A DNA stretch of 64,000 nt from Biomaibacter acetigenes. Its GTDB lineage: Bacteria; Bacillota; Thermosediminibacteria; Thermosediminibacterales; Tepidanaerobacteraceae. The notes under the pieces were generated by a model. That model ran no database searches. It saw nothing but the letters and a program-made list of their open reading frames with translations, and had not been told where the DNA came from. A program made the position numbers and the translations under genes. Location of the stretch: contig NZ_CP033169.1 of the NCBI RefSeq assembly GCF_003691585.1, positions 2,418,001-2,482,000 of the forward strand, written 5' to 3'. Below are positions 30,731 through 57,613 of the stretch, piece after piece (position 1 is the first letter of the stretch; every line of letters begins with the position of its first letter).

Positions 30731-30756
30731 AATAAAAAAATCCCCACAGCGGGGAA
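30731..30756 (-). terminator. Riboswitch expression-platform terminator
   Basis: CCCC-GCTGT-GGGG hairpin followed by ATTTTTTT on the minus strand, directly after the purine aptamer. A competing pairing (CCATTCCCC with GGGGAATGG downstream) is also visible. Guanine binding would favour this terminator and shut off the permease. Confidence 0.85.
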
Positions 30757-30767
30757 TGGGTATACCC

Positions 30768-30838
30768 CCCTGTAGCCTGTGGTGTTTTACGGACACCTGG
30801 TAGAAACTTCCGAGCCATATTCCCGGAATTATACAGGG
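30768..30838 (-). promoter_or_regulatory. Purine riboswitch aptamer, guanine type
   Basis: P1 is CCCTGTA/TACAGGG. The core shows the invariant TATAAT, ATATGG, AAGTTTCTACC and CCGTAAA segments of the class. The specificity position before the 3' P1 strand (GGCTAC, equivalent to position 74) is C, which selects guanine/hypoxanthine rather than adenine. It lies in the leader of the NCS2 permease, between a sigma-A promoter and an intrinsic terminator. Confidence 0.95.
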
Positions 30839-30864
30839 TAAAAATATGATTTTTTCCAAAAAAT

Positions 30865-57419: not shown

Positions 57420-57541
57420 AAAGAAACTGCGGAGCAGTTTCAACACACCGCTGCAACGAGGCTGGGGATTAAACATGCCGCCTGTCTTGTTAATAGGAAC
57501 CCGACCGCTTAAAGAAACGGGGGACATCTTTTCGCCTCGTT
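57420..57541 (-). ncRNA. Candidate structured RNA of about 120 nt, class unknown
   Basis: On the minus strand a TATAAT (57548-57553) is followed, at the expected start-site distance, by an 8-bp closing stem AACGAGGC/GCCTCGTT (57534-57541 with 57455-57462). Inside are nested stems TGTC/GACA and CCCG/CGGG and an unpaired CCTATTAACAA stretch. After a short spacer comes a perfect GAAACTGC-TCC-GCAGTTTC hairpin (57423-57441) followed by TTTCTAT. The layout is that of a discrete small RNA or a riboswitch-attenuator before the phosphoribosyltransferase gene 100 bp downstream. The -35 is poor (CGATTA). I match it to no known class with confidence. Confidence 0.55.
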
Positions 57542-57613
57542 ATAAATATTATACGGAAATTTACTACCCTTAATCGATAACCAGGTCTATTTTTAAGTTT
57601 CTTTATATCTCCT

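Follow-up and report, generated by a model that had tools for sequence, protein, structure and literature searches.

The window, by which we mean the whole 64,000-nucleotide stretch of Biomaibacter acetigenes DNA that was analysed, carries a 131-bp mobile element on its minus strand, between a TATAAT box and a phosphoribosyltransferase (PRT) gene. An earlier note had marked 57420-57553 as a candidate structured RNA, with the TATAAT box as part of it. The unit delimited here by comparison with relatives is longer in the downstream direction, running from 57539 to 57409, and is preceded by TTATAA. The features of the locus are as follows.

57553-57548, minus strand: TATAAT box, older flank outside the element, conserved at empty sites
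57545-57540, minus strand: TTATAA target, host DNA kept on the element's left (5') side; G001 and G009 have it at their empty sites too
57539-57409, minus strand: mobile element proper, CGAGGCG...ATGCTTAAA, 131 bp, extra relative to the empty sites and repeated elsewhere
57541-57534, minus strand: 5' strand of the closing helix, AACGAGGC, whose first two A belong to the target (fold, covariance model)
57520-57505, minus strand: first inner hairpin, CCGTTT-CTTT-AAGCGG, which covaries in relatives
57462-57455, minus strand: 3' strand of the closing helix, GCCTCGTT (fold, covariance model, 16-member alignment)
57441-57423, minus strand: subterminal 3' hairpin, GAAACTGC-TCC-GCAGTTTC, a perfect 8 bp, then TTTCTATGCT
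57319-56693, minus strand: PRT gene, neighbour only (PF00156, E 1.3e-16)

Elsewhere in the window, a 41-aa ORF (MSLQIEKFIEEFKKSPDIMKEKVIDFFQYLKYIAGDSKTSF, 57739-57614, minus strand) has an RBS-like AGGTGG immediately 5' and no match in a Pfam search, and an ordinary Rfam member, the purine riboswitch RF00167, scores 76.9 bits at 30753-30856 on the minus strand.

The structural description in the earlier note was confirmed in part. Its 8-bp closing helix around about 70 nt exists on the minus strand, where the 71 nt that it encloses include a nested stem. The PRT gene is confirmed too, and that strand encodes it downstream of the helix. Folding the window copy as minus-strand RNA gave z = -2.27, with 3 of 200 shuffles equally good, and the plus-strand fold was unremarkable (z = -1.02). 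The perfect 8-bp terminal hairpin is likewise present. The U-rich tail said to follow it is not a family trait, the tail usually being CAGTTTCTTCCGATGCTTAAA, so the 3' hairpin is probably not a dedicated terminator. A promoter scan of the locus scored no -35/-10 pair around the TATAAT box. The element falls outside the common RNA classes, as the note had supposed: the Rfam search it suggested returned chance matches only, whether cut off at the gathering score or relaxed to E values as high as 10. We found no described family in Rfam or in the literature, as far as its incomplete coverage reached, including work on Syntrophomonas and Selenomonas repeats. A tRNA or tmRNA was also considered and rejected, with none at the locus.

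The feature is a dispersed transposable repeat. In a search of 101 genomes, B. acetigenes had three copies, the other two being 93% and 78% identical to the window copy, and a genome of another family (G040, which we take to be probably Syntrophomonas wolfei (Goettingen)) had many. A 20-base piece of the element, allowing up to two mismatches, occurred 101 times in G040 and 0 times in a reversed control. Carriers in a scan of named genomes include S. wolfei subsp. methylbutyratica and other Syntrophomonas, with relatives also in Selenomonas, Anaerovibrio, Ruminiclostridium and several Clostridia MAGs. A covariance model built from 14 members was run on 398 genomes of the phylum and matched 15 of them, some of which, in family f34, hold distant multicopy families with near-identical copies; within the window its single match, at 147.3 bits, was the 131-bp element. 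Distant anaerobes share the element, yet it is patchy among close relatives. Elsewhere its length is about 120-180 bp; it is too short for a transposase and has no gene. By heuristic ORF calls, 75 of 78 copies in G040 lie outside ORFs, next to varied genes. Since several anaerobes carry scattered copies, one genome about 100 of them, nothing links the repeat specifically to the PRT gene. The window copy had no match in a search of phages and plasmids, in which the selenomonad form had one, on a Selenomonas ruminantium plasmid, and a pattern scan of IMG/VR for the element found none.

The ends of the element are exact. Among 69 full copies, conservation extends from TATAACGAGG to GATGCTTAAA and the flanks are random. 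Left TATAA and right CTT(A/T)AA are fixed in these 69, and TATAA stands to the left of nearly all copies. The joined flanks of the window copy align unbroken to the orthologous region of a genome of the same genus (G001) and one of the same family (G009), where the empty site reads CCGTATAATATTTATAA|GGGA. Only 57539-57409 is extra, without duplication. The TATAAT box is already there at the empty sites of both relatives and is therefore older flanking DNA, not part of the feature. G040 and a congener, G156, provide a reciprocal case: each has an insertion where the other has plain sequence, and the two sites are separated by about 29 bp. From the empty sites of the window copy and of this pair, we conclude that the element inserts directly 3' of TTATAA.

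Syntrophomonas-type copies have right ends of CTTAAA or CTTTAA, and their empty sites carry no 5-bp duplication. These right ends are therefore not target copies, and at most a 2-bp AA duplication is possible. Syntrophomonas-type ends form no inverted repeats; the selenomonad ends, TTATAACG and CGTTATAA, do, and hairpins lie near both ends. Selenomonad and some clostridial copies start with TATAACGAG and finish with CGTTATAA. Since a T precedes the right TATAA in 75 of 75 selenomonad copies and the base preceding the left TATAA is variable, we take the right TTATAA to be a cut site that belongs to the element. It looks element-borne, though a 5-bp duplication would also give TATAA at both ends. 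Integron attC-like ends (TTATAAC...GTTATAA) were set aside, because the copies are dispersed singly and the flank has no fixed G.

Both conservation and covariation, whose absence the earlier note had listed among the grounds for refuting its structured RNA, were found among relatives. A sister copy in the same genome (L020) folds into a clean cloverleaf, with a 9-10 bp closing helix holding three hairpins, followed by a separate long hairpin (z = -3.78, 0 of 200 shuffles). Across 16 diverse members, the closing helix is paired in 97.6% of cells, and the helix and first hairpin together form standard pairs in 94.9%. These two parts show 13 double-sided changes against a shuffled mean of 4.2, with none of 500 shuffles as high; first-hairpin variants include CCACCT/AGGTGG, CCACTT/AAGTGG and CCGCTT/AAGCGG. 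Covariation was weak in the Syntrophomonas-type set alone, where 16 of 500 shuffles reached the score, and in a first test the inner closing pairs and the 3' outer stem did no better than shuffles. Support for covariation therefore comes from the first hairpin and the wider 16-member set. Distant members have other self-complementary sequences in place of the 3' hairpin, and some copies have extra modules between or inside domains. Conserved pairing is expected of RNA and of single-stranded DNA alike.

Such modules, for example AGTGAGCGAAGCGAACATCAGTGGTGCCCGCAGGGTGC or GCGACGCGAAGCTAGTCCTTTAGGG, occur at set places in Syntrophomonas (L048, L059, L062, L103, L253) and in Selenomonas and Anaerovibrio (L187, L206, L266). 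A second short repeat, TTATACTTTTGAGCCTGCGAACCCAAATTGTGGTGCTCGCAGAGTGCTTCC, is nested after CTTCC in the 3' part of the element, sometimes in tandem (L002, L028, L148 and L159, in G085, G344 and G209). A larger composite with an internal gene was considered and rejected, as the extra stretch of L218, ahead of a normal 3' end, is only non-coding.

We propose, at a probability of about 0.65, that the element is a non-autonomous, transposase-free repeat moving as a folded single strand in the manner of IS200/IS605 (HUH Y1) elements. A transposase acting in trans would recognise the structured ends. It would cut at TTATAA^C on the left junction and at the right end carried by the element itself, which is CTTAAA^ here and GTTATAA^ in the selenomonad subfamily. 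The strand would be inserted 3' of a sequence resembling TTATAA, for the most part in the lagging-strand template and without target duplication; this is the 'peel and paste' mode of IS200/IS605 (HUH Y1) elements, which has been ascribed to PATEs. What the data contain directly is dispersal, exact ends, duplication-free empty sites, a fixed left target, subterminal hairpins, conserved structure and an orientation bias.

The orientation bias was measured in G040, which has dnaA at its start and a GC skew that changes sign between the 1.00-1.25 and 1.25-1.50 Mb bins. Among the copies listed, 74 of 100 fit insertion into the lagging-strand template, the strand that IS200/IS605 members such as IS608 and ISDra2 target (PMC6006769). 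For 35 copies the neighbouring genes diverge or converge (heuristic ORF calls), and 25 of these have the predicted orientation (p = 0.017). We made this recheck because genes are often co-oriented with replication, and gene direction explains part of the bias.

Y1 genes are present in many carriers. Comparing 20 Y1 loci with the element ends gave no match, and the search for an autonomous element with these ends found none. G040 has six Y1 genes, all of them long frames (255-301 aa) with the length expected of RAYTs, and the four of these loci that were examined hold no element copy. No Y1 gene was found in the drafts G374 and G353, both of which carry the family. The single-strand intermediate is one that we infer, and the enzyme class likewise, given this outcome for the autonomous transposon, the G040 frames and the two drafts.

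Other enzymes would explain parts of the same record. The copies could be MITEs that depend on a DDE transposase acting in trans, one that inserts at TATAA and duplicates 5 bp, such that TTATAACG...CGTTATAA would be short inverted repeats plus that duplication. The selenomonad and clostridial copies with TATAACGAG and CGTTATAA at their ends suit this idea, as does G374, where many near-identical copies occur with no detectable Y1 gene. It is nonetheless unlikely, given Syntrophomonas-type right ends that are not TATAA, empty sites that lack the 5-bp duplication, and the invariant T ahead of the right TATAA in selenomonads opposite a variable base on the left. RAYTs are domesticated Y1 transposases that spread REP elements, and mobilisation by one (TnpA_REP) would be a sub-case of single-strand transposition with a different enzyme. 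The RAYT-like length of the Y1 frames in a genome of about 101 copies speaks for it, but the four copy-free loci speak against it, and the element is several times as long as a REP (20-40 bp, PMC3733652), making a RAYT quite improbable. We also entertain, as a speculative and rather unlikely idea, a widely distributed superfamily of selfish repeats whose cloverleaf-like domain (RNA or ssDNA) acts in its own mobility with an enzyme that is not a recognised Y1, and which passes horizontally between Syntrophomonadaceae, Selenomonadaceae and Clostridia.

Explanations at the RNA level fare worse still. SINE-like retrotransposition of a cloverleaf RNA draws on the cloverleaf-like domain and on the GGGTTCTAATCCC arm that adjoins the closing helix in Syntrophomonas-type copies. 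Distant members, however, do not share the T-arm-like sequence, ARAGORN detects no tRNA at the locus, and the copies have neither an A-tail nor a target duplication, so that spread through RNA seems very improbable. The earlier note had favoured a small-RNA gene or a riboswitch with attenuator, which would here be a cis-regulatory or small RNA serving the PRT gene. A conserved secondary structure, a position between the TATAAT box and the gene, and the partly U-rich tail of the window copy's hairpin are all compatible with this suggestion. It is hardly credible when the same position is empty in the same genus (G001) and in G009, when the copies of G040, about 101 in number and all but three of 78 outside ORFs, are scattered beside unrelated genes, and when Rfam has no match. 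A riboswitch for the PRT gene is thus not supported. If the old TATAAT is used, the element would be part of the 5' leader, with a hairpin that could lower read-through into the PRT gene; such an effect is predicted to be incidental. For riboswitch searches this is a caution, in that a hairpin-rich element 5' of a gene can be an insertion beside an old promoter. As insertions can mimic riboswitches in this way, empty sites should be checked first.

Returning to transposition as a folded single strand, the closest known parallels are PATEs. Those of Haloquadratum walsbyi relate to IS605-type transposons, and PATEs have palindromes near their ends but no inverted terminal repeats, target duplication or transposase (PMC3119063). 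Our element is likewise short and gene-free, with subterminal palindromes, a 4-6 nt 5' target, no duplication and many copies. PATEs, however, match the ends of resident IS605-type transposons; we sought such a parent here without finding one and so call the element PATE-like, not a PATE. It also differs in its conserved, modular, cloverleaf-like interior and in its presence in several anaerobic Firmicutes families. The bcr1 and related repeats of the B. cereus group are likewise small, dispersed and structured, measuring 147-167 bp in up to 130 copies, with an AT-rich TTTAT linked to mobility by an unclear mechanism (PMC6542083; PMC2267715). Unlike our element, from which we set them apart by description and not by sequence, they are restricted to that group. 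BOX of Streptococcus pneumoniae is similarly a modular composite with strong secondary structure and over 100 copies, but its termini are inverted repeats, its insertions duplicate the target, and a DDE-type IS is thought to move it (PMC3049150). Its behaviour places the element among small repeats of the PATE, bcr and BOX-like kinds. Within that group, it is set apart as a variant by its range of hosts and by a modular architecture that is cloverleaf-like and covaries. Because its ends and empty sites are precisely defined and one complete genome holds about 100 copies, this compact structured repeat lends itself to studying how repeats without a transposase spread and what keeps their folds conserved.

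The B. acetigenes genome also holds an IS200-type element (L121) whose left end has TATAACGA and whose right end has GATGATT after a hairpin, compared with TATAACGAG and GATGCTTAAA in the repeat. Its copies follow TTG after terminator-like T runs, and the rest of its ends differ from those of the repeat; an L121 empty site was sought and not found. The similarity of end motifs is a lead only. IS200-type copies in this genome lie at G000:C1:145846-146576 (L121) and G000:C1:1607956-1608118 (L372), with further ones at L375 and L376, the last of which resembles a miniature derivative, about 45 bp long, in which both ends are present. Another dispersed motif, of about 35 bp (GGTGCCAGGCACTCACTTATTCACTTATGGAATT), recurs at about a dozen places in this genome (G000:C1:3191868-3250465) and also occurs in its relatives.
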